Source of the DNA: Siphonodentalium dalli
Lineage: Eukaryota; Mollusca; Scaphopoda; Gadilida; Siphonodentaliidae
Assembly: GCA_032622095.1 (NCBI GenBank)
Contig: CP136067.1
Location: 42,637,549 to 42,701,548, forward strand
DNA length: 64,000 bases
Reading direction: 5' to 3'
Position numbers and translations under genes: made by a program. The notes beneath the pieces are model-generated. The model saw only the letters and a program-made list of their open reading frames with translations. It was not told the origin of the DNA and ran no database searches. Of this stretch, positions 14,901 to 56,868 are shown one piece after another; position 1 is the first letter of the stretch; each line of letters begins with the position of its first letter.

Positions 14901-17146
14901 GGATGCTTATTAGTACCAAGCCTGCTAATAATGTGTCTGTCATATGCAGAATGAGGTCTAAAGAGGGTGAATTTAGTGATGCTATCCCTAACAGCGGGCT
15001 AGCATCACCAAATTCACCCTCTGGGAACCTCATTCTGCTTAGGCCTCAACTTCTATTGGAGACCAAAGCAGAATGAGCTCCCCAGAGGGTGAATTTGGTG
15101 ATGCTAGCTCACTGTGTGGGATAGCATCACTAAATTCACCCTCTTGGGGACCTCATTCTGCATATGACAGACACACCATATGCAGGCTTGATTAGTACCT
15201 ACCTTTATCTTCGCATGATATCAATAGAAGCGGCCTTGGGTTATAAAGAACTGACTTTTTACAATTTTACTGTTGTGTAATTTACAGATATAAAAGTTTT
15301 ATTGTATTGGCCCTGGTTAGGCGCACATATTTTACATCAATAGTTACAGTTATGCCCTGTGCCAATGCATTCTCTTATATTGCGAGTCGACCATAGGTCG
15401 CCTCGCATATATAAGAGAATGCATTGGCCTAAAAAAAATCTTTTTTTAACACTTTTTACCATTTTTTCTTACATTCTTTAACAATTTTATAATTTTTAAT
15501 GTGTTAAGCCAATGCATTCTCTTATATATGCGAGGCGACCTATGGTCGACTCGCATATATAAGAGAATGCATTGGCACAGGGCCCTTCTGTTTGGTAAAG
15601 GGTTAACATACCTGAATGGCATTGGGTCAGGAGTATCTGAGTTGTCTCAAGAAGTGATAAACTATATATATATATATCCTGCAGATTGTGTCAACAGCAC
15701 AGATTATGCTGGATCCATACTACCGAACGATAGAAGGATTCAAGGCGTTGGTGGAGAAGGAATGGCTGTCGTTTGGACATCGATTCACACATCGGAGTAA
15801 CCAGACTTCAGCTAATCAGGCGAGCGGGTTCGCGGCAATATTCCTACAGTTTCTCGACATTGTTCATCAGGTTAGATTTATGAAATACACACATTTTCTA
15901 ATCTACTGTAATGCCATAAATAATCGACTCCTTAACCACAGCAGAATTATGGGAAATTTTTCCGAATTTAGTCGGAAATATGGCTTGTTGCCATTCATTG
16001 GAAACCTCTCAGTGAGAGCTTTCCGATGAATGGCAACAAGCCGATTTTCCGACTAAATCCTGAAAAATTACACATAATTCTGCTGTGGTTAAGGAGTCGA
16101 TTATTTAGGGCATTACTGTATCTTAGTCTACCATGAAAACCTGGGATCAGACCTGTTAACTGTTAGGGCCTAATCTCTTGCACTCTCGGATAGGAATGAT
16201 AATCTCCCTGCTTGTACTGATTTAGTAAGTCTTTCCTTTTGACCATAAGACAGACTGTCAATGCCTCAGGTAAATTTGGCTATCATGACCTTGTGACAAT
16301 TAAAACCTCTGATTAATCTGGGGATATAACAGACATTGACACCCAGCAGGAGCACGATAATAAAATAACAGTCACCTATTGAAATGAAACACTTCAATAA
16401 ATTCAATAGCCCTTCCATGACTGGAGCTATACCTACCATTCCAGAGCTAATGTATTATGAAACCACCTCAATGTTTATTGGATTGCTGAATTCCAAACAA
16501 TGCACAATTTTAGCTCAACTTGTAAAAGTCAAGTTTGAGGTATTGCCATGTGCTGGCATCCGTCCGTGCATCAACAATTTCCTTTAGCACATCCTCCAAG
16601 CCACATCTCTCATCTGATCATCATTAAACTTCATATGGATCTTCGGAGAGCCAATAATTTTTTCCGAAATTCGTTAAAAATAACATGCCCGCTAACAGAC
16701 ATCTTGGATTTCAAATTCGAATCCATCTGCACACCCTAAAATTTACAGGCGTGTTCAGGATCACCTCTAGATGTGAGCTTTCTGATTTGAAAATTTTTCT
16801 ATGAAATCTTGGATTTTGCTCTTTGAATGACTAAATACTTCAGCACGCCCTACAGATAACATTTTTCATAAATTGATCCCAAACTTTACATGGCTCTTCC
16901 AGTCGACATATTATTTAAACATTTAAACTTTTGGCATTCCTTATTGCTCCATTGACTGCAATGTATGACACTATTCTCTCTCCAAGTTGAGCTACAGGGT
17001 CATTGACACTTTAATTTGACATTAAAATGTTATAACCCATTTTAATCTATTAGTGATCTAAAGTAAACCAAAAGTAGTTTTTATGTTTACCCATACCATA
17101 GTGTGGTAAACATAGTGTCGTCCGGATTGACCATTCATCGTCCGTC

Positions 17147-17177
<31 letters not shown>

Positions 17178-20100
17178 AGACCCTTTACGCATGGTGCGAT
17201 AACTCAAATATTTTCTATCTGATCGGAACCAAATTTTGTATGTGAATTTCTCAGCACAAAAGACAGCTCTAATTCGAATATGGGTTTGATCCGACTATTT
17301 TTAACTGAGTTATGGCCCTTTTTCGAAAATATATTCACTCTTAAAAAATTTTTTTTTAGATTGAATTCCTTGCTCAATTAAAAAAAAAAAAAAAAATTTA
17401 AGTTAACCAAATTTGAAAAACTAACACCATTATAACTCTGCCAAGGGTACCCCGAGTCACCACACCAAATTTGTTTAAATCGGTCCAAAATCTTGTGTTA
17501 TGTTCTGGTAAATTTGTTTGGAGCGACATTAAATCCAATTCACCAATTCCATCCCATGCCTTTGAACTACTTAGCTATTGATAAGGCTATATTATTTTCT
17601 GATGTCTCTTATGCCAATGTGCAGATAATCTGATAAAGAAAGCTATGGTATATCTAATTTAAAATAAAGATTCAACAATACACATCACATGATATTAACA
17701 GTAGACTTGAACATCTTTGCTGCCTTGCACAGCTGAAGATATCACTCTACAGATGGTCTGAGGTCATTATAAATGTTATTGGTTTAATAGACATAAACAT
17801 AAACAATTCCTGCACACATGATATGTTGACAGCTCTGCTATATTATTGATATTAATGGGTATGCAGTGAGGTGGCTTATCTTGATCTATATTGTTGGTAT
17901 AATTTGATACCTTATCATTGTAAACTTAAATTGGACTCTCTTAACCCAAGTATTCCATGTCCAGGTCACCTTTCACATTTAACCCGAGGCTGTTATGGTG
18001 CAGCATTACAGATCCTGTACCAGTACATTCTCTTATATAAATGCGAGTGATGTCCCTTGTTGGTAATGGATACTATTAGGGCAGCCTTTTATCAACCTTG
18101 TTTGTATTTGAATGTTAAATACTCTTTGAAACTTTAGATTTCTTTAACTTTATGAAAATGCTCAAGGTCTTTTGATTTATTATATCTCTTGGAAAATATT
18201 AATCAATCTCCCAGATATTGGCTGTATGATGTGCTGTAGAGTCCAGTAGCCCAGTGGTTAGAGTGTCGGACTTGTAATGGTGTTAATGCACTGGCATGAG
18301 TTCACGCCTGCCTGTGGACTATCATCTCCACAACAGTGGCTTGGTCAGATTAAGAGATGTGAGTGTTGATGAGCCGCACGCTGTTTAAATCTCGTGCCAG
18401 ATTGTGACCCTTGGGCAAGGTCACTTGTACTGTGCTCACTTATTGTACCTTGACAAGAAATAGGGACAGGGTTGTTGGGTAAGCTGCTCTACTGAAGTGC
18501 CTGTAAAATGGCAGCACTAGACTCGGCATTACTCAACAGCTGGCATAATAAAGTGAAGCACTTAGGGTCCGCTGGTATAGGAGATAAGCACTATATAATC
18601 ACCATTATAGTAAATAATTTTTTGAGGTTAACAGGTCTGTCTAGCAATGGATTAGTCTTGGATTTGACAAATGATCATTCATGGTCTGGAAAGTGTTTAA
18701 ATTGCCAAAAATGGCCTTGAATATCCTTATTTTTTAGCGATATATTCACCGCTCAATGAATGTATAATGGAAGATTTTAACAAGAATCTAGTAATTATTT
18801 AAAATTGGCCTTATTAACCTTTCTTTACTAAATAAGATTCTCCCATTAGTTATAAAAGTATACATTGGAATGGTTTATTCTTCATCTGGAGGGATGTTCA
18901 TGATTTATGAGTTGACGACAGACAGAAAAAAATGCAGAAGGATTCCTATTAATTGGTGGATAATTAAGCTTAGACAATAAGTTTAACAAGTGGCCTATGG
19001 CGTTGGTTGAACTTATTATATGCATATTTCCCAAGGGAACTACTCATAATAATTATTTTTTTTAAGAAAGGGTTAAATAAATTGATTTTTGTTCTGTTTC
19101 AGATCCACAAACAGTTCCCTCTTTCATTTGAATTCAACGACTTCTTCCTGAAGTTCCTGGCTTACCATTCAGTGTCGTGCCGATTTCGGACGTTCATGCT
19201 CGACTGTGAGTACGACCGCTTCGAGGCCGGCTGGTTGATTGATGAGAAACGTTTCACACAGATAGACCCTGAGGATGAGATTGGATTCTCTGCGAAAGCA
19301 CAGCATAACTCACAACATGGACTGTCACTGTGGGATTATGTAGATAAATACCACAGAAAGATGCCCATATTCTATAACTTCAATTTCAGTACAATTGACC
19401 AAGAAGCTGTAAGTATAAAATATATAGAGGATCTCCAACCTCCATAGAGGATCTCCAGTTATGTTGGGATATAATATTTTATGAAACGAGTTTGATCAAT
19501 TTGATTTACAACGAGTCGTAGACGAGTTGTGAATCAAATTTATCAAACGAGTTTCATAAAATCTTATATCCCAACATATCGAGTTGAAGATCTTGTATAT
19601 CACATGAAAAAAACTAGAGCATTATGCCTTTTTAACAAATCAAAATCCTTAACAGAAGCTTAAAAATGCACTCATTTCCATTGTTGGCTGAGACACTTCA
19701 CAACCGTATACGACAGTATTGCGCGCTCGAGCTGCCGACGGAAAAATAGTCCCACCATTTGCCTCTTTGTTTTTGTAATTATATTGGTTAATTAAGTTGG
19801 ACAATAATTTAACTTTAATGAACAAAGCAATCATTTTGCATTGTCTGGTGTTGTTGCCATGTGCGGCTTTACAAAATAGTATTAATCTGCCTCATTTAAT
19901 GTAAAGTCATTTGTTGGCACTCTGCCAAGTTGGCGGGAGACTGTGCTTATTCGCAACTAGTGAAAGATAAGAAAATATCTAATGGCTTTTGTAATGATAT
20001 ATTAGGGTTTCATGTGATATAGTTAACTCCGGCAACATCGGATGTACATGGGGATTGATACCTTGATGTCGATTTTGAACCTACCCCCCCCCCCCCATCA

Positions 20101-23100
20101 TGGGGTTAAAAAAGAGACATCTAGGTATCATATATCCAAGCCTTCAAATAGTGTGTCATTTGCAGATTGAGGTCCCCAGAGGGTGTATTTGATGATGCTA
20201 CTCCACATGATAGGCTAGATTCACCAAATTTACCCTCTGGGAACCTCATTCTTCTCAGACCTCAACTGTTATGGGACACCTAAGATCAGATTGAAGTTCC
20301 CCAGTTGAAGTTGGTGATGTTAACCTATGAATCACCTCAAATAGGAATTTTTATCTTCTGCAAATTAGGGGATATAGAAACTTCCCAGAAGGGAAAAAGT
20401 AACTAAAAACAATGTTAATTTGAGACTATAGATACTTCCCAGAAGATGAAGCCTAAGCAGAATGAGGTCCATAGAGGGTGAATTTGGTGATGCTAGTCCA
20501 CTGTGAAGGATAGCATCACTAAATTCATCCTCTGGGGACCTCATTCTGCAAATAACAGACACACTATTTGCTGTGCACGAGATAACAATTTTACACCCAC
20601 AACTATGTTTTGTAGGTACTGTGATCATACTGGAATCTTTCAACCCACACTAACCTGTCATCCACATGATTTGTAGGTGCTGCGGCCACACTTAACCTGT
20701 CAACTACCTTATTTTAGTAACCTGTCATACACATGTTTGGTAGGCACTGGGGCTGTACTCTAATCTGCCAACTCATATGATGTTCTTTAGGTGCTGCGGC
20801 CGTACTTAACCTGTCTTCCACATGAGTTGTAGGTGCTACAGCCATACTTAACCTGTCTTCCACATGGTTTGTAGGTGCTACACCCATACTTAACCTGTCT
20901 TCCACATGATTTGTAGGTGCTACACCCATACTTAACTTGTCTTCCACATGATTTGTAGGTGCTACACCCATACTTAACTTGTCTTCCACATGATTTGTAG
21001 GTGCTACAGCCATACTTAACATGTCTTCCACATGGTTTGTAGGTGCTACACCCATACTTAACTTGTCTTCCACATGATTTGTAGGTGCTGTGACCGTACT
21101 TAACCTGTCTTCCACATGAGTTGTAGGTGCTACAGCCATACTTAACATGTCTTCCACATGGTTTGTAGGTGCTACACCCATACTTAACTTGTCTTCCACA
21201 TGATTTGTAGGTGCTGTGACCGTACTTAACCTGTCAACCCACATGATTTAGTAACCTGTCATCCACATGATTTAGTAACTTGTCCTCCACATGTTTGGTA
21301 GGCTGTACTCTAATCTGCTAACACGTATGATTTTCTGTAGGTGCTACAGCCATACTTAACTTGTCATCCACATTATTTGTAGGTGCTGCGGCCGTAATTA
21401 ACCTGTCATCCACATGCTTTGGTAACCTGTCCTCCACATGATTTGCAGGTGCTACGGCCATACTCTAGCTTGTCAAACCTGGAAATCTGGGACTATTACC
21501 TCACTGAGGACTTAGCTAATGGTCCGTCATATGACTTCGAAATCATCACCATTTGTAGGTGCTATGGCCATACTTAACCTGTCAACCCACATGTTTTAGA
21601 AACCAGTCATCCACATGTTTTGTAGGTACTGTAGTCATACTCTAACCCATGTCATCCACATGTTTTGTACATGTTTTGTAGGTGCTGCGCCGTAATTAAC
21701 CAAACAACCCATATGTTTTAGTAACCTGTCATCCACATATTTTGTAGGAAATGCAGCCATACTTAACATATAAACCCAGATGTTTTTGTAATCAATCATC
21801 CACATGATTTGTAGGTGCTGTGGCCACACTTAACATGTCAACTCACTTGTTTCAGTAACCTGTCATCCACATGTAGGTACTACAGCCATTACTGTAACCC
21901 AGGGACCAGCCTAGGGTCAAAATATAGGGAGAAGTGACTTCTCCCTCTTGGAAAAATAAGGAGAAGTGGGGGCTTGCCAGGGAGAAGTGGAGCGTTAGTG
22001 CGACTATTTGTCGCCAGTAACTATTCATTAGAACTGATTGTTTTAGCTGTTATTATTGTCCACAATAGATTTTCTACATGGGTGAGGATAAACTGGAAGT
22101 GTTAAGCTGAGCAGTAGATCATCCAGTCACCAATTCTTCAGGGAGATTAAAAATTTAACTAAAATTTTTTTTTTTTTTTAAATTTTTTTTTATTTAGGGA
22201 GACATCCACTTCTCCCTGACGTCATTTCAGGGCGACTTACGGCCACACAGGGCGACTATTTCGCCCACGTCGCCCCCTAGGCTGGTCCCTGCTCTAACCT
22301 GTCATCCATATGTTTTGTTGGTACTGCAGCCATACTTAATCTATGCTTTGGTAACCTGTCCTCCACATGATTTGTAGGTGCTACGACCATACTCTAACCT
22401 GTCAAACCTAGACATCTGGGACTATTACCTCACTGAGGACTTAGCTCACGGTCCGTCATATGACTTCGAAATCGTCACCAAAGAACTGAAGCAGAACGAG
22501 GCACAAGAAGCAATAGAAGGTGTCAGCTATAGAAGAAAAGGCATCAATGGTTGCTATGACAACATAATGTTCCAGGAACCGGACACATTTACATTGCAGT
22601 TCCAAGTGAGTACTGACACATATGTACAGTCATAGCTCTATAATTAAAGGCCCACTTAATTTGTGAACCCCCAGATCACATTATATAAAATAAATACCAT
22701 TTTGTATACCATTTGAAAGAGGAAGCTCCAAAACATTGTATTATCAATTTATCAACTTGTCCGGTGTAATAAACTGAACATGTGGTTTTCGATGAGATAC
22801 CGACGTGTTGTCTGTGCTCAGGTTTCATTTCGACTGTACCGCAAAGTCTATTATTTTTATTGGAAGGGAATACCTCTATATCTTAGTTTTAATTCTATTG
22901 CATTCTGGGCAGCGAAACGAGGGAAATATTTCTATGATTTCAGCTACTTTCTATTACTCTATGGGCACCTTTTGAGACACAGACATTCCAAATGGTGATG
23001 AATTATAGTATTTTAATCATAATTTATGTTATAGATTGTTATTAAAACCATATAATTAAAAAAAATTAAATCGGCCTTTAAAAGATGAGGTGATTACAGA

Positions 23101-26100
23101 ATATTCCATGTGATTAAAATGAAACTAAATGAAATTATTTCCTATAGACTTCGCCATAGGTTTCACTTGTTCCAGCCATATATATTCACAGTTGAGTTTT
23201 TGGGAATGCGGAAAGCGCTCTTTTAGTTTTTTCGAAGCTCAATATCCAGATACTGATATCAAACCGAATCTTACTAAAAGTTTAGAATTAGACCGCTATT
23301 ATTTGTTTTTTCCCATTCCCTACCAAATATAGAAAGTTTGAGTACTGTAGATAGATTTTCATGTTAATATGTAATTTATTTCCCAATTTATAATATTAAT
23401 TATTCAGTTCCTTATAGAAAATGAACATTTTTACAAGAATAACATCAATTTTATAAAGTCGAAGTTTACAATAATCTTTGGCTGAACAATAAAATGAAAT
23501 TTTATTCTAAATAAGGCTAATAAAAGTTTTCCATAGGAGGATCTTTCTTTAGTAGGTAAGGAGTGGGCAACAAACAATTGTTTTATTTTGGCCTTAGCTC
23601 TTTCATGACTGGAGCTTCCTCAAATTTAGCGAAAACCTTGTGGCAATGCATTCTCTTATATATGCGAGTCATATATAAGACAATACATTGGTCTAACAAT
23701 ATTTACCTTGACCTTGTAAGCAAGCTTCATCCTCTTATATATGCAAGGCTCCCTATGAGAGACTCGCATATATAAGAGAATGCACTGGAACATGATCTTT
23801 AATGCTGCACCATTACAGCTCACGTCATGAAAGGGTTTAATACGGACATATTGTGAAGCATTCTCTAAATTTTTTCAGGAGACGCTGAAGTTAGAGACAG
23901 ATTTGGGTCACCTGCCACTAAAATGGAAATCTATGTGGGACAGATTGGAATCTCCGAATCGTGAAACGCTGAAAAGACAGATATCATTTAACACTCAGTT
24001 AGTGCGATCGCATGGACGATCGATTCATAAACGTTCGACACTCGAGATTCTAGTGAGAGGAAAGCTGTTGGGTGAAACTGTTAAAATGTTCAGTCAGCCT
24101 CACAGATTTGAGAAGCATAATTACACAACTCCAGCCTACTGTGATTATTGTAATAATATTCTCTGGGGATTAATTAAAACAGGTAACACTAATTAACTTA
24201 ATAATTAAAATTAAAAATAATTTGCCTACCAAACAGATTTGAGAAGGACTCCATTAACCCTTTACCCAACAGAAGGGCCCTGTGCCAATGCATTCTCTTA
24301 TATATGCGAGTCGACCATAGGTCGCCTCGCATATATAAGAGAATGCATTGGTTTAACACATTAAAAATTATAAAATTGTTAAAGAATGTAAGAAAAAATG
24401 GTAGAAAGTGTTAAAAAAAGATTTTTTTTAGGCCAATGCATTCTCTTATATATGCGAGGCGACCTATGGTCGACTCGCATATTTAAGAGAATGCATTGGC
24501 ACAGGGCATAACTGTAACTATCACAATGTGGTCAAGGAGCCGATTCCAATGATATCCATATTTGTATGGTTCTATTGAGACAGACCGAAGATATTTTAGG
24601 CTGTTGAAGTTTTATTTGGCCGGTTTTGGCCGTTTTTTTGGGTAAAGGGTTAATTTACAGTCAACCTCGCTTGAGAAATCTGATGATACGACCCCAGCCT
24701 ACAATAACGAATATTGTAATAGTATTCGCTGGGGGTTAATTTAAAAGTTATTATTGTTACTACCTACGGCATCATGCTTTATTGATTTACAAAGTTATAG
24801 TGATCACTCAGTTTCTTTGAAAAGCCGACGAAAATCCTATATCGGAATTATGTCTCTAGACATGTCCATAATATTTCATTTCTTCGGAGATGCGGCATTC
24901 CCAATATGATGTAATAAACCATTTCCATATTTAGAAATAGTTATAAATACAACTAGATGCGAAAGAATAATCAGTTAGGAATATTGTTGACTGATAAAAA
25001 AAAACTCAAAAGGTGATGTCTCCTATATTGCGATGAGTACTAGTAGAATGAATTATGGATATATCGCCCTGAATTCAGTTTTCCAACAATAGTTGAGTTT
25101 GACACTTCGTGGAAAAATTGTCAACACGTCATTGACCTCTGATCTCTGACATGATCTGCTATGCCATAAACCAATGAAATCGCGCGCACTCTCCAATGAA
25201 ATGGAGGGAATCTCTTCAATATAGAACCTAATTTTAATAGAGACTTCCAGAGACGTAATTCCGATATAGGATTTATGTCGGCTTTTCAAAGAGACTGGGG
25301 ATCGCTGAACTTCAACACTGAACCATATAAAAAAAATTCAATTTTAATGCTACTTGTTAACGATATTGATTTTATACCTACCCGAAGTAATCAGTCATAG
25401 TGGATAGGGTAGATCTGTAACATCTTTATTGGTTTATGATATTTGAGCTATTCGAATCGACGGTGTTGACTCCAAAGAATAGGTTTCAATAATGTCAAGT
25501 AAATGGCTTTTCTGCCAAAAACAATCATATTAATAATTGTCATTGAAATTTCTTTGGTTTCTCTGGTTCAATTATAATTGAGTTTTAGGGACCGCCCAAC
25601 TTGGATCCCAGCATGGATGTAATAATTCTGTAATTTAAAATTTAAACATCTTTTTAACAAGTTCTAGTAGTGACTTTCTCGCTCTTGTCATTAATTGGGC
25701 CAAAATATTAAGTTTGTTCAAGTTGTTTAATATTCTTGTGGAACATAGAGTCTGACCTTTAAAGGGACCCAAGGCACCCTCTGTGTTAATGTGCAAAAAA
25801 TATAAAGGTCTGTAAAAACATCACCACCAAGAAGGACATGGAGAAATAGATAAACTTTGTTCTTATATTCATTATGGAAAGTTCTCCAATATCTAAGTTT
25901 TGCATGTTGAAACCATTGTTATGTAACAAAACTGTTACAGTGATTTGTCAATAAACATAACTAGTCATGTAGTAAGGTCAAATATTTTAGTCTGCATATG
26001 ATTTTCAGAATATTTTTCAATACTTTTATCTTTTCTAATGTTTGCTGTCAAGTTTTGATTAAACTTGGTATCTTATTGGACTAATTTGACTTTTATCGAT

Positions 26101-29100
26101 AATTCCACAAAGTCAATCAAATCTTGGGTATTTTGGTACAAAATTCTAGAATTTGTTCTCAATTGTAAAAGAAATAACTTTTTAAGTCCAAAAAGTTTAA
26201 AAGTTTTTTTATTCTTTATTTATCATACACCATAAATCTTATTTTCTTCTCATAGGAATGCACTGTTCAGATTGTGGTTACAACTGCCATGAGAAATGTA
26301 TGCCGCTTGTGCCGAAGAATTGTTCCAAGTTGAAGCCAGTGACGGATTCCAGTACTAGCAGTACCAACCTGTCAAAGGCTGCTTCTGCTGAGACGAGCTC
26401 AACAAAGGGTGGTGGTGAGTCTGATTAACTGATTGAACGCCAGCCTCCCGTGTGGATTACATCGCCCGTCGCACATATGTCTCAAGGTCCAAAGACCAGA
26501 CTCATTCCCCTCACCAATGATCTTTTTCAAAATATACATATAATCAATCACAGTCTATCTCCAAAACTCCTGCTGGCATGCCTGTAATAGTGTATCTGTT
26601 ATTTGCAGAATGAGGTCCCCAGAGGATGAATTTAGTAATCCTATCCCGCAAAACCGGCTAGCATCACCAAATTCACCCTCTGGGAACATCATTCTGCTTA
26701 AGCCTCAACTGTTATGGGAGACCTAAGATCAGATTGACGTTCCCCAGTTGAAGTTGGTGATGTTCACCCATTAGTCACCGATTATGCATTTTATCTTCTG
26801 CAAATTAGGGGATATAGAAACTTCCCAGAAGGGAAAAAGTAACTAAAACAATATTAATTTGAGACATAGATACCTCCCAGAAGATGATGCCTATGCAGAA
26901 TGAGGTCCTTGAGGGTGAATTTAATGCTAGCATGCTGTGCAGGATAAATTCACCCTATGGGGACCTCATTCTGCAAATGATAGACAGACTATTTGCAGGC
27001 TTGTCTACTGGTAAGCAATGGCAGAGGTTAAACCAAATGAATACTTCTGAAAGCCGGTCAACTGAGCACAGTGTGTTACCACTTACCCCTTCAAATCAAA
27101 AGTGCAGCAAACTACAGCATATTATTGGTGTGCTGTCAAATTACCGCATTCTGCAATGTAGAAACACATAGTGTTGCACTGACATCAAACAATGCTGGCC
27201 GCCTGTATTATAATGTGCAATAATACTGAACAGGTAGTAGGAATTCATACCAGTTAATATTAACAGCAGTCCATAACCATAACATCCATTGAGAATGAAA
27301 GCAACTCCCAACCCAATATGGAGCTGAAGAATAATAGTTTTGTTGTCCCGTCTGGAGCCCAGGCACAATCATGAATCACGGTCACCGCCTCAGTTTAGTG
27401 TCTCCCAAATAGCCTAATTTATCCCCATTTCCCATCCATATAAGTGATACCCCTGGCAGTGAATAAATTGTTATGCTACTTATACTGTTGTTACCATACT
27501 ATTTTTATCATTCATAGGAGGTACACTAACGAGTACGTCAGTTATATTTGACCACCATTCTGGGGAACATCGGACACATGAGGGATATCTTTTCAAACGA
27601 GGAGCTCTTCTCAAAGGTTGGAAACAGCGGTGGTTTGTTCTGGACTCCATGAAGCATCAGGTATTATTATGTTAAAGGCGCATAATGCCTTCACATTGGG
27701 TATATGTGAGAGATCCTGTCTCTTTTAACCCTTCCATGACTGGATCTTCCTGAAATTTTGCGAATAACCATGTGCCAATGCATTATCTTATATATGCGAG
27801 TCTCCCATAGGGAGCCTCGCATATATAAGAGAATACATTGGCCTAACAATACTTGCCTTGACCTTGTAAGCCAGTGCATTTTCTCTTATATATGCAAGAC
27901 TCCCTAGGAGAGACTTGCATATATAAGATAATGCACTGGCACAGGATCTTTAATACTGCACCAGCGCAGCTCCCACCATGAAAGGGTTAAAAATCCGATG
28001 TTAATCTTTCAGATTTGGTCTCTAGCATTCCTATTCAGATCCCATTTCTATGATCGAAGTGGCATTCCCAAGGTGATGTAACAATTCGCATCCAAATATG
28101 GAGTGCAAACTATCGTGGTAATCTTTTGCGAGAATCGTATTATTTATTAACCCTTTACCCAACAGAAGGGCCCTGTGCCAATGCATTCTCTTATATATGC
28201 GAGTCGACCATAGGTCGCCTCGCATATATAAGAGAATGCATTGGCTTAACACATTAAAAATTATAAAATTGTTAAAGAATGTAAGAAAAAAATGGTAAAA
28301 AGTGTTAAAAAAAGATTTTTTTTAGGCCAATGCATTCTCTTATATATGCGAGGCGACCTATGGTCGACTCGCATATATAAGAGAATGCATTGGCACAGGG
28401 CTAACTGTAACTATCACAATGTGGTCAAGGAGCCGGTTCCAATGATATCCATATTTGTATGGTTCTATTGAGACAGACTGAAGATATTTTAGGCTGTTGA
28501 AGCTTTATTTGGCCGGTTTTGGCCGGTTTGTTGGGTAAAGGGTTAAACAACACAATGTTAAAAAGTATTTAGTAATAAATATCATTGGCTAATATAATCT
28601 CAAAGATAATGTTTCCTAGTTTTTTATTGTTATTTTATTGCATTCGGATATGCATTAACCCTTTATCCAACAAACCGGCCAAAACCGCCCAAATGAAGCT
28701 TCAACAGCCTAAAATATCTTCGGTCTGTCTCAATAGAACCATACAAATATGGATATCATTGGAACCGGCTCATTGACCACATTGTGATGGTTATAGTTAT
28801 ACCCTGTGCCAATGCATTCTCTTATATATGCGAGTCGACCATAGGTCGCCTCGCATATATAAGAGAATGCATTGGCCTAAAAAAATTCTTTTTTTAACAC
28901 TTTTTACCATTTTTTCTTACATTCTTTAACAATTTTATAATTTTTAATGTGTTAAGCCAATGCATTCTCTTATATATGCGAGGCGACCTATGGTCGACTC
29001 GCATATATAAGAGAATGCATTGGCACAGGGCCCTTCTGTTGGGTAAAGGGTTAACAGTCTGTGTTCTATATTATAAAATATTCCGTATCATGCTATGTGT

Positions 29101-31596
29101 GGGAAAATTGTCAACACGTCATTTACCTCTAATGTCAGAATTTATATATAACAATCATGAAGCTGTGTTTGTAATTGTTGATGGCTGTTTAAAGAGACTG
29201 GATCCTGCCTGGCAATGAGCTGTTACATCATTAACCAATGAAATTGCGCATAGTAACCAATGGACCAATGGTTATGGCAATCCCATTAATAGATTATAAA
29301 CGTACCCTGTTTCATTGTAATCCAATCTAGCAAGGAATTTGCAAAAAAAACTGTATAAAAAATATCATTTAGTCATTTTCATGACATGAATCGAGATTTT
29401 CATTTTGCCGTTGTCACCGTGCACAAATCATCGGGTTTGTTCATTGCGTTACTCGGAATACGGCTCCGTAACAATTTCCTGTTTCCCTACTCCGTTCTGC
29501 ACCGATGAAATTTTACTGTGCTACATTCAGATTTGATGCACGCTGAAGCAGCCGATGAACGGTAACTATAGACAACAACGCGCAGGTGTGCTCATTTCGC
29601 TACTCCGTTCTGCGCGATGAAATTTTACCGTGCTACATTCAGATTTGATGCATGCTAAACCGGCCGATGTCAGTGAATCGAAAACTAAAGTTAGCTGCTC
29701 TCGGCCAATCAGAATGCTTGTTTTTAGTGACAAATACTCAATGAATTACAATAGATTATAAACTAGCCTATAAGTACGCCACTGTGTGAAAATAATTGAC
29801 ATTCATTATAAAACCAATGAGATTATTGCCTCTTTCATAAAAAGCAAAATATCTTAATTTATAACAAGAACCCTAAATATACACTGAGCACCTATTAAAA
29901 AGATAAATAATTAATTTAAACTTTCTGTTAATTGATTAATACAGAGGAAGTGTAGTGAGTGTAGCTCAGAGTAATTATGCCCCGTCATTCATTTCATTGC
30001 CCAGGTCAAGATTAGTGCCCATTCCAGCCCAGTGTACTGAATGGAATGGAAACATCCCTTGGAAGGACTGATTAGAACCACCAGGGGGTGATTCCATTCA
30101 TTACGCTGGGCTACAATGGGTAAATTACCCTGGGCAAAAGTGAATGGAATGAATTTTGGTACCTAAAAACAGCACAGTTACATAATTTTGTATTGAGGAA
30201 ATTTGACAAAACTCACATTGGGCGTGTTAAACAGACGAAGACTTAAGTAAATGAGCAAAAATATCTGATATTCACAATGAAACTAACAAGAATTTTGACT
30301 TTTATCGAACAAGCAAAATACCTAATTTTAGAACAACCTTGACACCAACTAACTAAAACTTTGGATAAATAAATTTAACTGTCATTCAATTGAATTATAT
30401 ATATCGGAATTATGTATTACATATTTATGACAATTTATTAAAAATAGAAGTCATTTAAATGATTACATAAATATTTTCCATGTGCTTTCTCAGTTGACGA
30501 CCGATCCTCATGGGGAAAGTGACATCACATAACAATACGCTCGAAATTGAAATTACATCACCTCGGCCATAGGTGTAGCGAGCATAGCCCGGCGTATTTA
30601 TGCCCAGTCATTCCATTCATTGCCCATTGTAATTTCATTACCAATTGTAGCCAAGCGTAACTAATGGAATCGCCCCCTGCTTTTACTGTATTCCATATAG
30701 CATTCTCCTGAATGATGAAAATCCTTCCATTTCAGCTGAGGTATTATGACACAAGTGATGACACAAATTGTAAGGGACATGTAGACCTTGCAGAGGTAGA
30801 GTCTCTTACTCTTTTGAAGAATGTACAGGGTGCACCGAAGAAATCTGATGAGAACGCCTTCTTCGAGGTATATTCTTATTGATAGGGACATTACAAAATT
30901 TTAATGTTCTCATAGTATCTTGACCTTTCCCCATCGCACATTTCCTCACTTTCACAAGCAGACATTTCCTCACTCAGTCATATACCCACCGGACATTTCC
31001 CACCCAGCTCATACTAATAAGAAGCAATATGTGAAGAGTCAGCACTAAATTAAAGATAAGATACAGTATATCTATTGTCGTGAATAACCAAAAGTTTTGA
31101 CAGAGTTATGGCCCTTTGATTGTCATTTTGCCATTAGCAGCCACGAAAAGTTGTCCGGGGTTTATTTCGAATCACTTATCGACAGATTTGAAAGATTTTG
31201 GAAACTAGGCCCGGCCATATATTTTCACCAAAGTTACTACCCTTTAATTGTAATTTTTTGGCATTTTAAGCCCGAACTAAAACAGATATTAACCAATCTC
31301 ATATCAAATATGAACTGTTTTCCATTATTTTGAAGCATATTTTGAAAATGCCCATCCCCAACTTTGTCCACCTAGGCAGGGGATATCACCGTCAGTGACT
31401 GATTGTTACAGTTGATACATTGGTTAAGAAACCATTATATGCATAGCTCTCAGTTAGATGGGTGTGGAATGAACATTTATACATTTCTGTCATTTTCTTG
31501 CAGTTGAGGACTCTGAGAAGATACTACCACTTTCTGGCACCGGACGGCAAGACGGCACAGGAGTGGATTGAAAAAGTTCAGAGCTGTATAACATAG
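8823..31596 (+). CDS. Sbf: Sbf (MTMR5/MTMR13 homologue), C-terminal part, 11 exons
   Basis: Joined exons 8823-8989, 10725-10901, 13431-13535, 15685-15870, 19103-19408, 22378-22605, 23879-24182, 26256-26414, 27518-27660, 30736-30867 and 31504-31596 read as one open frame of about 666 residues ending in TAG. All introns are GT-AG and phases agree. The product follows vertebrate SBF1/SBF2 in order: end of the myotubularin-like phosphatase domain with a dead active site, SID-like helical region, C1 zinc finger, PH domain. Known for the family: a catalytically inactive phosphatase that partners active myotubularins and carries an N-terminal DENN Rab-exchange module, acting at endosomal membranes. 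The DENN, GRAM and first phosphatase exons must lie left of position 1. Family proteins are about 1,850-2,000 residues, so roughly the last third is here. Whether it is orthologous to SBF1, SBF2 or both cannot be decided. Confidence 0.93.
9104..9960. repeat. Old dispersed repeat copy, intron A-B
   Basis: Shares AAACATGGCCGCCAGCAGCC and CTAGATGGGAGCCATC with the 780 copy, ending CAAGTTCAGCTACATTGTCA. Fills most of the first half of the intron. Confidence 0.6.
10298..10475. mobile_element. Ttaa-2 element, partial
   Basis: The left end TTAACCCTTTAATGACTGG and first hairpin are present. The second hairpin is deleted (CAGTGCATTTATGCGGGATC) and the right end is missing. Confidence 0.55.
10725..10901 (+). 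CDS. Sbf: Sbf exon B: phosphatase domain
   Basis: The acceptor GTTGTAG ends at 10724 and the donor GTGAGG starts at 10902. The exon has 59 codons, phase 0 at both ends (residues 57-115). The peptide starts [10 protein letters not shown], contains [19 protein letters not shown] and ends EDSNWLQQ, matching the SBF/myotubularin segment before the P-loop (compare the EVRQVRASFK-type motif in SBF1). A hAT-D type repeat starts about 40 bp after the donor. Confidence 0.93.
10941..11275. mobile_element. hAT-D related MITE
   Basis: Left inverted pair GCAGAATGAGGTCCAGAGGG / complement, and a partial right half. The ends are not preserved. Confidence 0.55.
11576..11975 (+). mobile_element. Ttaa-1 double-hairpin MITE, copy 4
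   Basis: Full length. The right TTAA (11972-11975) is also the left TTAA of the Ttaa-5 element that follows, so one of the two inserted into the other's target duplication. Confidence 0.85.
11972..12351 (+). mobile_element. Ttaa-5 element
   Basis: 380 bp, TTAAAGTGATGTGAAACACT to TATGGCTTTAA. It shares its left TTAA with Ttaa-1 copy 4. Confidence 0.8.
12352..13103. other. Intron B-C filler
   Basis: AT-rich. It contains an inverted pair around 12625-12760 (ACACACGTAGTGTTTCTGAA and complement, ~20 bp arms). No coding signal. Confidence 0.4.
13112..13364. mobile_element. hAT-D MITE with clean 8 bp duplication
   Basis: 253 bp, inverted ends CAAGGCTTGAAATAGTGTG, inner repeats GCAGAATGAGGT..CCCAGAGGGTGAATTT. 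The duplication TCCATATT is perfect at 13104-13111 and 13365-13372. It ends 66 bp before Sbf exon C. Confidence 0.85.
13431..13535 (+). CDS. Sbf: Sbf exon C: inactive P-loop of the phosphatase domain
   Basis: The acceptor TTATCAG ends at 13430 and the donor GTAATA starts at 13536. The exon has 35 codons, phase 0/0 (residues 116-150). The active-site loop reads [12 protein letters not shown]. Active myotubularins have HCSDGWDRT here. The nucleophilic Cys is Leu (codon 13506-13508) and the phosphate-binding Arg is Val (codon 13524-13526), while the DGWD core is kept. This is the hallmark of the MTMR5/MTMR13 pseudophosphatases and shows that the product cannot use the usual cysteine mechanism. 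Confidence 0.95.
13619..13996 (+). mobile_element. Ttaa-5 element
   Basis: 378 bp, TTAA at both ends, located 83 bp after the Sbf exon C donor. Confidence 0.8.
14033..14145. mobile_element. hAT-D MITE, internal deletion
   Basis: Only the two outer arms remain (GCAGAATGAGGTTCC... and GGGGACCTCATTCTGC). Confidence 0.6.
14450..14839 (-). mobile_element. Ttaa-1 double-hairpin MITE, copy 5, reversed
   Basis: About 390 bp in opposite orientation to copies 1-4. The right end is TCAA instead of TTAA. It lies in the intron between Sbf exons C and D, together with a forward copy at 15341, so the pre-mRNA carries complementary copies. Confidence 0.8.
14917..15190. mobile_element. hAT-D MITE with clean 8 bp duplication
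   Basis: 274 bp, ends CAAGCCTG / CAGGCTTG. The duplication ATTAGTAC is perfect at 14909-14916 and 15191-15198. Confidence 0.85.
15341..15606 (+). mobile_element. Ttaa-1 element, left-truncated copy
   Basis: It starts inside the left arm (ATAGTTACAGTTATGCCC). It has both hairpins and the right end TTTGGTAAAGGGTTAA. It ends 78 bp before Sbf exon D. Confidence 0.75.
15685..15870 (+). CDS. Sbf: Sbf exon D: end of phosphatase domain, start of SID region
   Basis: The acceptor TATCCTGCAG ends at 15684 after a short (TA)n tract, and the donor GTTAGA starts at 15871. The exon has 62 codons, phase 0/0 (residues 151-212). The peptide carries [20 protein letters not shown] then FGHRFTHR, the near-invariant myotubularin block after the P-loop, which in SBF proteins overlaps the SET-interacting domain (SID). 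It ends [11 protein letters not shown] Pal-TA palindrome starts 33 bp downstream of the donor. Confidence 0.95.
15904..16120. mobile_element. Pal-TA palindromic MITE
   Basis: Same palindrome, 33 bp after the Sbf exon D donor. A few arm mismatches (TTTTTCCGAATTTAG). Confidence 0.85.
16511..17010. repeat. Old dispersed repeat copy, intron D-E
   Basis: Begins TAGCTCAACTTGTAAAAGTC, has CTTCATATGGATCTTCGG and ends CCAAGTTGAGCTACAGGGTC. Confidence 0.6.
17086..18047 (+). repeat. Block paralogous to 51084-52649 (inverted)
   Basis: Starts GTTTACCCATACCATAGTG and includes a (GTCT)n run at ~17147-17175. It continues through AGATTCAACAATACACATCA and ends in a half Ttaa-2 element (GATCCTGTACCAGTACATTC). 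The other copy is inside the 2.9 kb hAT-like element, in reverse, with two extra Ttaa-5 insertions. Confidence 0.8.
18236..18615 (+). mobile_element. tRNA-derived SINE
   Basis: The head AGTAGCCCAGTGGTTAGAGT resembles a Pol III A box region, and GAGTTCACGCC about 55 bp later a B box. GTGACCCTTGGGCAAGGTCA and the tail AGATAAGCACTATATAATCA are typical of metazoan SINEs. It is not a tRNA gene: no acceptor-stem pairing was seen. Confidence 0.6.
18814..19052. mobile_element. Ttaa-4 short element
   Basis: It starts TTAACCTTTCTTTACTAAAT and contains GTTATAAAAGTATACATTGG, GAAGGATTCCTATT and GGGAACTACTCAT. The last end (GAGTATTTAG...GGGTTAA) is missing. It lies just before Sbf exon E. Confidence 0.55.
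19103..19408 (+). CDS. Sbf: Sbf exon E: C-terminal myotubularin/SID segment
   Basis: The acceptor TCTGTTTCAG ends at 19102 and the donor GTAAGT starts at 19409. The exon has 102 codons, phase 0/0 (residues 213-314). It encodes [20 protein letters not shown], then [15 protein letters not shown], then [20 protein letters not shown]. The last part is the SBF form of the S(V)W-x-Y-V motif that closes myotubularin domains. It is the longest exon in the window. A short Ttaa-4 repeat ends about 50 bp before the acceptor, and a ~126 bp foldback starts 47 bp after the donor. Confidence 0.95.
19455..19585. repeat. Foldback after Sbf exon E
   Basis: The arms TATGTTGGGATATAATATTT... and their complement pair over ~55 bp with a ~20 bp loop (ACAACGAGTCGTAGACGAG). 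It starts 47 bp after the exon E donor. The rest of 19586-20136 has no recognised feature except a ~14 base C run at 20083-20096. Confidence 0.65.
20137..20571. mobile_element. hAT-D MITE, long form
   Basis: It starts CAAGCCTTCAAATAGTGTG and has the full middle segment (GGGGATATAGAAACTTCCC). The right end was lost after ACACTATTTG, where array-related sequence follows. Confidence 0.75.
21449..21550 (+). pseudogene. Truncated duplicate of Sbf exon F
   Basis: 102 bp preceded by an acceptor-like ATTTGCAG encodes 34 codons that match the first 34 of exon F, with 8 base changes. The four amino-acid changes are mild (Asn-Ser, Asp-Glu, His-Asn, Val-Ile) and there is no stop within it. It then runs straight back into array sequence (ATTTGTAGGTGC), so the last 42 codons and the true donor are missing. 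Using the GTAGGT just after it as a donor would give 106 bp and a frameshift. Confidence 0.85.
21900..22291. mobile_element. hAT-like MITE inside the exon F array
   Basis: A perfect 17 bp TIR CAGGGACCAGCCTAGGG lies at both ends. The flanking 8 bp duplication CTGTAACC / CTCTAACC has 7 of 8 bases matching. The interior is 392 bp long in total with GGGAGAAGTG repeats and long A/T runs, and no coding region. Confidence 0.8.
22378..22605 (+). CDS. Sbf: Sbf exon F: domain-end motif and acidic linker
   Basis: The acceptor TGATTTGTAG ends at 22377 and the donor GTGAGT starts at 22606. The exon has 76 codons, phase 0/0 (residues 315-390). The start [17 protein letters not shown] matches the conserved LRPYSN-x-S-N-L-x-x-W motif of SBF proteins. 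The remainder is an acidic, poorly conserved linker. The acceptor and first ten or so codons are copied many times in the tandem array just upstream (20.6-22.4 kb), and 34 codons are copied once at 21449-21550. This copy is chosen as the real exon because only it continues to a good donor with matching phase. Confidence 0.94.
22644..23081. mobile_element. Ttaa-7 element after Sbf exon F
   Basis: 438 bp with ends TTAAAGGCCCACTTAATTT and inverted TTAAAGGCCGATTTAATTT. It starts 38 bp after the exon F donor. A related reversed fragment covers about 39290-39440 (GAGCTTCCTCTTTCAAATGG shared). Confidence 0.6.
23594..23840. mobile_element. Ttaa-2 hairpin MITE
   Basis: Ends TTAGCTCTTTCATGACTGG and CGTCATGAAAGGGTTTAA. 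The first hairpin is shortened. It ends 38 bp before Sbf exon G, so it makes up nearly all of the local acceptor-side intron sequence. Confidence 0.7.
23879..24182 (+). CDS. Sbf: Sbf exon G: helical linker and first half of C1 zinc finger
   Basis: The acceptor TTTTTTCAG ends at 23878 and the donor GTAACA starts at 24183. The exon has 101 codons plus one base (residues 391-491). [10 protein letters not shown] followed by [10 protein letters not shown] matches the coiled-coil-like LETELG...W-K-x-x-WDR block of SBF1/2. From residue 465 a C1 domain begins: His465, Cys478 and Cys481 are zinc ligands at H-x12-C-x2-C spacing. Vertebrate SBF1/2 lack a recognisable C1 here, while insect Sbf is known to have one. 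Confidence 0.94.
24254..24653 (-). mobile_element. Ttaa-1 double-hairpin MITE, reversed, intron G-H
   Basis: Full length at 400 bp with TTAA at both ends. It starts 71 bp after the Sbf exon G donor. Confidence 0.85.
24809..25297. mobile_element. Inverted-repeat element in intron G-H
   Basis: The ends CAGTTTCTTTGAAAAGCCGA and, inverted, CAGTCTCTTTGAAAAGCCGA continue for ~45 bp (CCTATATCGGAATTA). The flanks match only partly (GTGATCACT / GGGATCGCT). A piece of its interior (AAATTGTCAACACGTCATT) also occurs at 29104-29125. Confidence 0.6.
25298..26255. other. Intron G-H, unrepeated AT-rich part
   Basis: No hairpin element or coding frame recognised. It ends in a pyrimidine-rich acceptor region before exon H. 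Confidence 0.5.
26256..26414 (+). CDS. Sbf: Sbf exon H: second half of C1 zinc finger
   Basis: The acceptor CTTCTCATAG ends at 26255 and the donor GTGAGT starts at 26415. Phase is 1 at both ends (residues 492-545 with split glycines). It supplies the rest of the zinc ligands: with exon G the pattern is H-x12-C-x2-C-x13-C-x2-C-x4-H-x2-C-x7-C, complete. A serine/threonine-rich linker ([20 protein letters not shown]) follows and is probably disordered. The intron before it (24183-26255) holds a Ttaa-1 hairpin element and an inverted-repeat element. Confidence 0.94.
26577..27003. mobile_element. hAT-D MITE, long form, intron H-I
   Basis: 427 bp with left CATGCCTGTAATAGTG and right CTATTTGCAGGCTTG; the middle segment is present. 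Confidence 0.75.
27518..27660 (+). CDS. Sbf: Sbf exon I: start of PH domain
   Basis: The acceptor TTCATAG ends at 27517 and the donor GTATTA starts at 27661. It enters in phase 1 and leaves in phase 0 (residues 545-592). The motif [20 protein letters not shown] followed by VLD is the first two strands of a PH domain. The basic K-x(n)-K-x-R pattern in the beta1-beta2 loop is often used for phosphoinositide binding. A Ttaa-2 element starts 64 bp after the donor. Confidence 0.94.
27725..27990. mobile_element. Ttaa-2 hairpin MITE (reference copy)
   Basis: 266 bp with ends TTAACCCTTCCATGACTGG and CCACCATGAAAGGGTTAA. The two hairpins have arms like those of Ttaa-1 (GCATTCTCTTATATATGCGA) but TCTCCCATAGGGAGCC-type centres. 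A conserved spacer ATTTACCTTGACCTTGTAAG separates them. Confidence 0.8.
28147..28546 (-). mobile_element. Ttaa-1 double-hairpin MITE, reversed, intron I-J
   Basis: Full length with both ends intact. It forms an inverted pair with the forward copy 108 bp downstream; folded transcript would form a ~400 bp duplex. Confidence 0.85.
28655..29054 (+). mobile_element. Ttaa-1 double-hairpin MITE, forward, intron I-J
   Basis: Full length at 400 bp, with ends TTAACCCTTTATCCAACA and TGTTGGGTAAAGGGTTAA. It is the partner of the reversed copy at 28147-28546. Confidence 0.85.
29489..29672 (+). repeat. Two-copy tandem duplication, ~112 bp period
   Basis: CTACTCCGTTCTGC...GATGAAATTTTAC...GCTACATTCAGATTTGATGC occurs at 29489-29560 and again at 29601-29672. 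It lies in intron I-J with no coding signal. Confidence 0.6.
29673..30735. other. Intron I-J, right part
   Basis: It contains a degenerate inverted/direct repeat of GTGTAGC-G-G---AGC...ATTATGCCC--TCATTC around 29953-30010, 30080-30150 and 30565-30680. It looks like an old foldback element. No coding signal. Confidence 0.4.
30736..30867 (+). CDS. Sbf: Sbf exon J: middle of PH domain
   Basis: The acceptor CCATTTCAG ends at 30735 and the donor GTATAT starts at 30868. The exon has 44 codons, phase 0/0 (residues 593-636). [20 protein letters not shown] matches the SBF1 PH-domain strand LRYYD...CKG-x-IDLAEVE almost position by position. It ends KSDENAFFE. Confidence 0.94.
31504..31596 (+). CDS. 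Sbf: Sbf exon K: PH domain C-terminal helix and stop
   Basis: The acceptor TTTCTTGCAG ends at 31503. Thirty codons (residues 637-666) run to TAG at 31594-31596. [20 protein letters not shown] followed by [10 protein letters not shown] gives the last PH strand and the amphipathic helix with its invariant Trp. The protein ends within a few residues of where SBF1 ends, so this is the natural C-terminus. Confidence 0.95.
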   Translation: MRTLRRYYHFLAPDGKTAQEWIEKVQSCIT

Positions 31597-42888: not shown

Positions 42889-43699
42889 CTACATTATAAT
42901 ATGCTATACTTTCTCAATAATAAAAATTCTCAGTGTTTCAACCACAGAGATCCAAACCTGCCTTAATTTTCACTGCTTTATTAACTTTGATGCTTTGCAG
43001 ATAGTAAATCAGAGTTTAATACGCACATTTCATATTTTCTGTATGACTGATTCAGTTGCGATCACGCTTCCCTGTCGCCATAACAACAGCTCAAGTAATC
43101 TCGCTCTATTTTGATAATATTTCTTAGTTTATTTATTTTAGTTCTCAGTATTATGTGAGTTTTATGTGGATTTTTTAATGTCTTGTCATTTTCTGTAAAT
43201 ACCTGTTAAAACTTGAACTTATTTAAATGATTTCTCAGTCTGATTGAAGTAGACTCACTGTATCTCGTACAGAGCCCAACGTGGATAGAACCGTGCTCTG
43301 CTGTATGCATTCTGCTCCAGTCTGTGGGGATTTCTATGCTTGGCATAAGGTATGATTCAAGCACAAATTCAATATATCCCATATGCCCAATAAAATACAA
43401 ATGTCCAATCAAAATGAAATGGTAGACATTGGAAAAGGTCAAAGTTTTGAAAAATATTTTTCAAAAAAATGGATTCAAACTGAAATATTTTAAATAATGG
43501 TACGATCATCAATGTTTGTTGACTTTTAAATAATGGTACGATCAGCAATGTTTTTTGATAAATTGCTGTAACAGTAATGTTTACTTAACAGATGTTTCAA
43601 CATGCGAATTATCATTAATGTTGGATAATAACTGATAGTGAAATATGAATATCGATCTATTTACCTACTTTCTTCCCAATGGAAAGGCCGTAGGTCCAT

Positions 43700-55924: not shown

Positions 55925-56868
55925 ATTTGAGATAAGAACTTGACAACTCTCTCATTTCCATGGTAACCATGTTATATAAAGTCCTATTAGATATCATAAC
56001 TTGACCTAGATCGTGCCATGGATCTCTACTATGGCTTCGACCGTAGAGATCATGTTCCATCAGTTTGAAACCTGGGAATGTTTTGACAGGGAATTTCATA
56101 ACATTGAAAAAATTAACACAGGTAATATATTTCATAATTAAATTACAACCAGTTCGTTAATAATGTATTTCACAGTAGGTGAAGGTCCCAGCTCAAGATT
56201 ACATGAGTTAGGAAACTAAAAACTCATGTAACATTGTGAGCTGATTTTGCGATAAATATGAATTGATTACCTGAGGGAAAACTTTATGATCGTAATCTGT
56301 GTAATCTCGAGTTGCACCTTCCCGTAATGTGAAACACATTATAAAGAAACAGGTATTCACTAAGAAATAAATTACCTGTGTTATTTTTTTTATGTTATAT
56401 AGTTTCCCATCAGTTCTTCAAAAAGTTTGTAGGTTTTGAACTGGTGGAATATGATCTCTACAGGTACTAGGTGTAGGCATTGTGTAGAGATTCATTACAT
56501 GACCTGAACTTGACCACTCTCTCATTTCCATGGGAACCATATTATTTAATCTGTCAATTGAGATCAGACCTGAGGACACTCTTATTTCCATGGAAACCAT
56601 GTTATATAGTTTGACATAATGCGAGCCATGTTCTATATATTGCTATTTGAGATCAGAACTTGAGGACGCTCTCATTTCCATGGTAACCATATTAAGTGAT
56701 ATGCGTTTTGAGACAGAACTTGTTCACTCTCTCGTTTCATGTGAACCATGTTATATATAGTGCTATATGTGATCAGAATTTGAGGATCAGAGGATGATCT
56801 CATTTCCATGGTAACCTTATTAGGTAGTGATATGCATTTTGAGTCAGAACTTTAGCACTCTCATTTCC
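55925..56868 (-). repeat. Degenerate tandem repeat in the TTLL1 3' UTR
   Basis: Units of roughly 50-100 bp recur at about 55935, 56505, 56565, 56655, 56725, 56790 and 56850. On the - strand the core reads GGTTACCATGGAAATGAGAG, followed by CAAGTTCTGATCTCAAA-like sequence. The core overlaps in sequence the final codons of TTLL1 (ACATGGAAATGAGA at the stop). With the Mutator-like element removed, the stop region would be the first unit of the array. 56135-56400 is non-repeat sequence between units. Confidence 0.6.

Follow-up and report, generated by a model that had tools for sequence, protein, structure and literature searches.

In an SBF/MTMR5/13-type gene, the intron upstream of exon F ends in a 42-bp minisatellite whose units match the very intron-exon junction that they precede, placing about 30 acceptor-like copies ahead of the true 3' splice site. 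The gene lies in a 64,000-nucleotide stretch of animal DNA (GC 36.5%), the whole of which was analysed and is referred to here as the window. The sequence relations between array, junction and exon can be read directly from the alignments, as can a transposon-like insertion nested within the array; as to function, we infer that the array is most likely near-neutral. We consider it probable that the array is a 'mirage', largely near-neutral in its effects, and that the true acceptor is chosen by exon definition.

The + strand of the window carries the 3' half of the gene, in which eight exons, from D to K, were placed (Table 1). An AG precedes all eight exons, a GT follows each of the seven that have a donor, and the joined exons form a single open frame that runs to a stop. 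Pfam analysis of the joined D-K protein found, from first to last, Myotub-related (6.8e-42, residues 1-101, which lie ahead of exon F), C1 (8e-18) and PH (4e-14), and this domain order is the reason for presuming the gene to be SBF. phmmer aligned the start of exon F with VLYPVASLSHLELW / VLYPVASLSHLELWVNYY of MTMR1 (PDB 5c16); the aligned part is the second of the match's segments, which at 8.1 bits is not significant alone but follows collinearly on the first (100.9 bits). For the exon F protein (75 aa), neither genome_contigs (41 pattern matches) nor viral_contigs (5), collections that are not expected to contain this animal, yielded a confirmed relative, and phages gave none; PDB gave only an unrelated match (E 0.67).

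Table 1. Positions in the window of the gene's exons, the junction-derived array and associated repeats (a slash within a motif marks the splice border)
Feature	Position	Strand	Description
Exon D	15685-15870	+	Continuous frame
Exon E	19103-19408	+	Phase 0 end GAAGCT/GTAAGT; donor of the array-bearing intron
Intron E-F	19409-22377	+	2969 nt; final ~1.77 kb is array, insertion counted in
Junction-derived minisatellite, whole span	20605-22377	+	392 bp of the span is transposon-like insertion
Array, upstream part	20605-21899	+	Includes eleven 42-bp-register acceptors (20790-21210) and the repeated 126-bp block
138-bp copy of the real junction (22343-22480)	21414-21551	+	129/138 identical (93.5%); 35 nt intron end plus 103 nt exon F
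Nested transposon-like insertion	21900-22291	.	392 bp; perfect 17-bp terminal inverted repeats CAGGGACCAGCCTAGGG
Array end and true exon F acceptor	22292-22377	+	Last units; TTTGTAG at 22371-22377
Exon F	22378-22605	+	228 nt; begins and ends in phase 0; likely origin of the exon sequence in the array; first 26 nt in unit
Exon G	23879-24182	+	Continuous frame; C1-domain exon
Degenerate partial copies of exon G 3' end	24233-24745	+	Two pieces split by a MITE; second border duplication in the gene
Exon H	26256-26414	+	Continuous frame
Exon I	27518-27660	+	Continuous frame
Exon J	30736-30867	+	Continuous frame
Exon K	31504-31596	+	Continuous frame to stop

Tandem Repeats Finder reported 20788-21249 as a repeat of period 42 with 11.0 copies, 90% matches and 0% indels. 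With up to two mismatches allowed, TTTGTAGGTGCTRC occurs 22 times in the window, always on the + strand and between 20609 and 22384, the true site among them, compared with a mean of 0.71 and a maximum of 3 in 100 shuffles. When the true exon F junction was compared with the units by BLAST, identities were mostly 76-91% and E values went down to 5e-15. These results bear out the central description in an earlier note on this DNA, i.e. a 42-bp tandem array with junction content, and refine several of its details. The perfect 42-bp register that it described was recovered, with eleven acceptors in register rather than ten units. The unit does join the intron end to the exon start, of which it takes in 26 nt, or about 8.7 codons rather than about ten. 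The array was also found where it had been placed, at 20608-22377, apart from the stretch 21900-22291, where an element bounded by 17-bp inverted repeats has inserted. The count of about 30 decoy acceptors was a fair one: by eye, we chose 30 among the 77 AGs besides the true one in 20600-22377, made up of 24 junction-type decoys (some degenerate) and six shorter ones (TTTAG/TAACC-like) and spread over 20615-21876.

The founding segment is ∼43 nt long, i.e. 17 nt of intron end and 26 nt of exon start, and a change from TACTCTAACC to TACTTAACC in the amplified units reduces it to 42 nt. The 24-bp units (TTTAG/TAACCTGTCATCCACATGA) resemble 42-bp units that have been shortened by an internal deletion. 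The block at 20988-21113 is repeated at 21114-21239 with 123 of 126 positions identical, which suggests a recent expansion in the single haplotype analysed, and at the corresponding lag of three units (126 bp) the units depart weakly from a random order (permutation 0.046). Most units differ from each other, some of those in register (e.g. 20904 and 20946) being identical, and the array directly abuts exon F at 22377/22378.

One copy, absent from the earlier note, extends much further into the exon. This 138-bp copy has a single difference from the real junction in its 35 nt of intron and eight differences in its 103 nt of exon F; the latter fall in seven codons, of which three are changed silently and four by replacement. 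The copy does not include the exon F donor, stops abruptly in a unit, and reaches a stop after 42 codons. When the nested insertion is removed, 20900-21551 can be aligned with 21552-22480 from end to end with gaps, as would be expected had a larger block, reaching 103 nt into exon F, been duplicated, although repeats align with repeats in any case. The nested insertion itself is flanked by CTGTAACC/CTCTAACC, probably an 8-bp target duplication in which one position differs, and we take the element to be hAT-like. It sits inside a unit, and the array is therefore older than the insertion.

Since exon F shares a continuous frame with its neighbors and its start aligns, weakly but collinearly, with MTMR1, the array most likely derives from an exon start that was coding long before; the polarity from exon to array is well supported. 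The array would have begun when a ∼43-nt segment across the 3' splice junction of exon F was duplicated in tandem, and loss of 1 nt would have given the 42-nt unit. Expansion would then have been stepwise, involving single units, the three-unit 126-bp block, and a larger block that took 103 nt of exon F upstream, with unequal exchange or replication slippage as the presumed engine.

The acceptor signals were scored with a rough general matrix that was not fitted to this species. On this scale the true exon F acceptor scores 2.13, seventh of the gene's eight acceptors. Scores at least as high were obtained for 14 of the 24 junction decoys, for none of the six short decoys, and for 18 of the 77 AGs overall (four of the 18 being inside the insertion or at its edge); the best unit-derived acceptor was 21448, the CAG of the exon copy, at 4.04 on the same rough matrix. 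A branch-like motif, defined as YTNAY 15-45 nt upstream with no AG between, accompanies 20 of the 30 decoys (15/24 junction-type and 5/6 short), the baseline being 52/334 for other YAGs in 15.9-20.5 and 22.7-31.4 kb, exons included. In the register units the motif is TTAAC, 23 nt upstream, and comes from former exon sequence (TCTAAC); in the register units 20832 and 21126 the motif is present but an AG intervenes. Only five of the eight true acceptors (E, F, H, I and K) pass this test, so the motif is not a strict requirement. The decoys thus look competent as acceptors, which tells against the near-neutral reading: more than half of the junction-type ones equal or exceed the true site in score, and a branch-like motif accompanies two thirds of all decoys. 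Folded as RNA, the register array was no more stable than shuffled sequence, 94 of 100 shuffles folding at least as well.

When exon E was joined to a decoy, a stop was met before exon G in 30/30 cases. However, the same was true of all 77 AGs besides the true one in 20600-22377, and a stop after a decoy is therefore not a special property. It had been proposed that most decoys are followed by an in-frame stop, CATACTTAA. This did not hold: the unit's own CATACTTAA provides the first in-frame stop for 0/24 junction decoys. A variant, CGTAATTAA, at the same place is the first stop once, for 21681, and for decoys 20743 and 21448 the first stop is a TAA at the CATACTTAA place in the following unit. 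For 10 of the 24 the first stop is instead the TAG of a following acceptor, which is in frame because 42 nt is 14 codons; for the remainder it is another TGA, TAA or TAG. Nor is truncation before the C1-PH part, which had been given as the result of mis-splicing, the sole outcome. Because exon F (228 nt) begins and ends in phase 0, a transcript that skips it stays in frame through to the C1/PH part, and mis-splicing need not truncate the protein before that part.

Nonsense-mediated decay is expected to remove mRNA with an early stop. If the array is the near-neutral mirage that we favor, the spliceosome would define exon F (228 nt) from its own donor and pair this donor with the nearest acceptor; use of a decoy would instead make exons of 729-1990 nt, which would be disfavored relative to 228 nt, and the occasional transcript in which a decoy was used would acquire an early stop and pass to nonsense-mediated decay. 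According to the available part of PMC9225289, splicing in large introns favors those sites that lie nearest to each other across the exon. Exon definition of this kind would explain how the last acceptor can prevail, and we infer that it extends to the present gene.

The same properties could be read as regulation, with competing acceptors sending part of the transcripts to nonsense-mediated decay and array length setting the dose of SBF. The branch-like motifs, the exon copy acceptor scoring above the real one and the premature stop in every decoy product are what this reading would predict, and so is the behavior of the acceptor core, which is invariant in the ten register units compared (0/11 variable columns vs 10/31 in the rest of the unit; Fisher p=0.041, uncorrected, with neither columns nor units independent). 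This low variation could hint at selection. However, the difference is nominal and is partly expected from recent homogenisation, the premature stop follows from any AG of the stretch, and amphioxus mirages are said, in the accessible text of PMC3087553 and PMC3902484, not to disturb splicing. We therefore regard regulatory decoys as unlikely. In its strongest form this idea would make the ∼30 self-amplified 3' splice sites a length-tunable splicing brake, in which a longer array gives more nonsense-mediated decay and so sets SBF dose, most sites having a branch-like motif of their own that derives from coding sequence of the exon, and many of them being closed by the in-frame TAG of the next unit; we think this quite improbable.

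The array might alternatively be at an early stage of intron or exon gain, with the 103-nt exon F copy or the units becoming alternative exons. Duplicated AG/GT junctions are a proposed substrate for such gains (PMC3087553, and potato RdRp in the part of PMC4974935 at hand). However, the exon copy has no donor and runs into its stop after 42 codons, and as donors the 21 GT sites of the units score from -1.56 to 1.16 compared with 0.35 to 6.23 for the gene's seven donors on a rough general matrix, the ranges overlapping in that the unit site 21448 (1.16) is above true donors I and J. From none of the 77 AGs does an open frame run through to exon G and, on the same rough matrix, the unit donors are mostly weak. 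We consider intron or exon gain in progress very unlikely. Recursive splicing at the AG/GT sites was also considered and rejected, the unit donor scores being mostly low on that rough matrix.

A different origin for the array, i.e. a dispersed satellite or transposon that landed beside exon F and either matches it by chance or donated its acceptor, deserves consideration in a window where transposon-like repeats are abundant and one lies inside the array itself. A profile of ten units (nhmmer, 64 kb) gave nothing with E below 0.4 outside 20605-22403; the five weak matches outside the array (E 0.48 to 5.6), which might be taken as dispersed copies, are at chance level. The true junction had no BLAST match in the 64 kb with E at or below 0.1 beyond the array and exon F. 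When the whole array region was compared with the window by BLAST (E up to 1e-3), only two outside matches were found (E 5e-5 and 2e-4), and both stem from T/A-rich sequence inside the nested insertion and neither from the units. Moreover, the match between unit and gene spans both the intron end and the coding start, and in one copy it takes in 103 nt of exon. We therefore reject a dispersed satellite within the 64 kb and consider such an origin highly improbable. The earlier assertion that the gene amplified its own junction, rather than acquiring a foreign satellite, stands within this range: amplification of the gene's own intron-exon junction is supported, in the 64 kb, by the lack of significant unit copies outside the array, by the exon-bearing copy, and by an exon F that is in frame and MTMR1-collinear. 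Beyond the window, an exact unit 30-mer had no matches in viral_contigs, a collection not expected to contain this animal. A degenerate unit 21-mer was found in two contigs, where the unit profile scored 20 bits (E 8e-6, a value inflated because the contigs were picked by the same pattern), with a second weak profile match (E 0.15) 47 bp away; no tandem array was seen by eye in 901 bases of one of the two, and the matches in both were taken as chance.

Finally, tandem repeats are error-prone in assembly and a globin mirage was apparently aberrantly assembled in a draft genome (PMC3087553), so the unit number here may be wrong, but repeats that were mis-joined or over-expanded are scarcely probable given that most units are mutually different, that 11 acceptors are in exact register with 0% indels, and that one unit contains a transposon-like insertion with a probable target duplication.

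Fifteen exon borders of the gene (eight acceptors and seven donors) were searched for nearby copies and, besides the exon F acceptor, one more had such a copy, namely the 3' end of exon G. Its longer match, at 24709-24745 (37 nt, 86%, E 1.6e-7), falls 3 nt short of the end of the exon and hence does not include the exon G donor; the second is a weak match of 14 nt, exact, at 24233-24246, on the far side of a TTAA-flanked MITE. On the intron side of the exon G donor border, 24 nt match the minus strand at 23409-23386 (E 0.003). The MITE (∼24254-24653) belongs to a ∼400-bp family with TTAACCCTTTACCC ends, presumably piggyBac-MITE-like, that is found in at least 12 other places (e.g. 28146, 35138, 8730, 11975 and 40182); among the matches listed, at least 12 further copies have 93-98% identity over 268 bp or more, and the family is apparently young. 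Elsewhere in the window there is a 60-bp tandem repeat at 56619-56784 (2.8 copies) and a 36-bp unit repeated twice at 43488-43558 (94%). A 177-aa minus-strand ORF in the array was rejected as coding, since a stop-free 42-bp unit keeps the frame in two minus frames; its Pfam matches (PDE8, E 0.00086; Ant-IIb, E 0.047) were below the curated cut-offs and were rejected as chance. No tRNA was found in the window (bacterial settings), and no Rfam family reached the gathering score.

Mirages have been described in amphioxus in Adh3 and the globins BflGb6 and BflGb9 (PMC3087553), to which the available text of PMC3902484 adds troponin C and PGBD5; the statements on Adh3 and troponin C rest on these two citing papers, in the parts accessible. 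In BflGb6 the repeat contains the intron 3' end and the exon 5' part, with six and three units in two haplotypes (PMC3087553), and somatic instability is cited for Adh3 (PMC3087553). Units are 10-72 bp long in Adh3 and 150-160 bp in the globins, and many copies have AG/GT signals and evolve in concert within a cluster, as described in the portions of PMC3087553 and PMC3902484 available. The Adh3 data and globin RT-PCR suggested no interference with regular splicing (PMC3087553).

The present array likewise consists of minisatellite tandem repeats, with a unit that spans a boundary of its own host gene and a location at that boundary, and in these portions of the amphioxus reports the repeats are also minisatellite-like tandem copies across an intron-exon boundary. 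It differs from them in its 42-bp unit and ∼30 acceptor-like copies (compared with six and three in BflGb6), in the branch-like motif for 20 of the 30, in the nested transposon-like insertion and in its SBF-type gene. In potato RdRp, a duplication across an intron end and exon start also carries a putative branch site, tract and acceptor; there, as far as the excerpt of PMC4974935 goes, tandem duplication made a new intron in the transcript, whereas here there is a long array that gives no indication of a new intron. In genes of human segmental duplications, variable tandem repeats at boundaries may similarly cause novel introns via cryptic splice sites; in the available text of PMC2812944 these are repeats within exons of recent paralogues, not an intronic array of acceptors.

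The array thus offers a natural competition assay for 3' splice-site choice, with ∼30 related acceptors in one intron, some of them predicted to be stronger than the true one, and a readable history of possible mirage formation, from 43-nt founder through 1-nt loss and block expansions to an exon-bearing duplication. If the host is not a lancelet, mirages extend beyond the cephalochordates, the only group so named in the accessible parts of PMC3087553 and PMC3902484. The array is a further case of the known mirage kind, with a copy number above that of the globin cases in PMC3087553.
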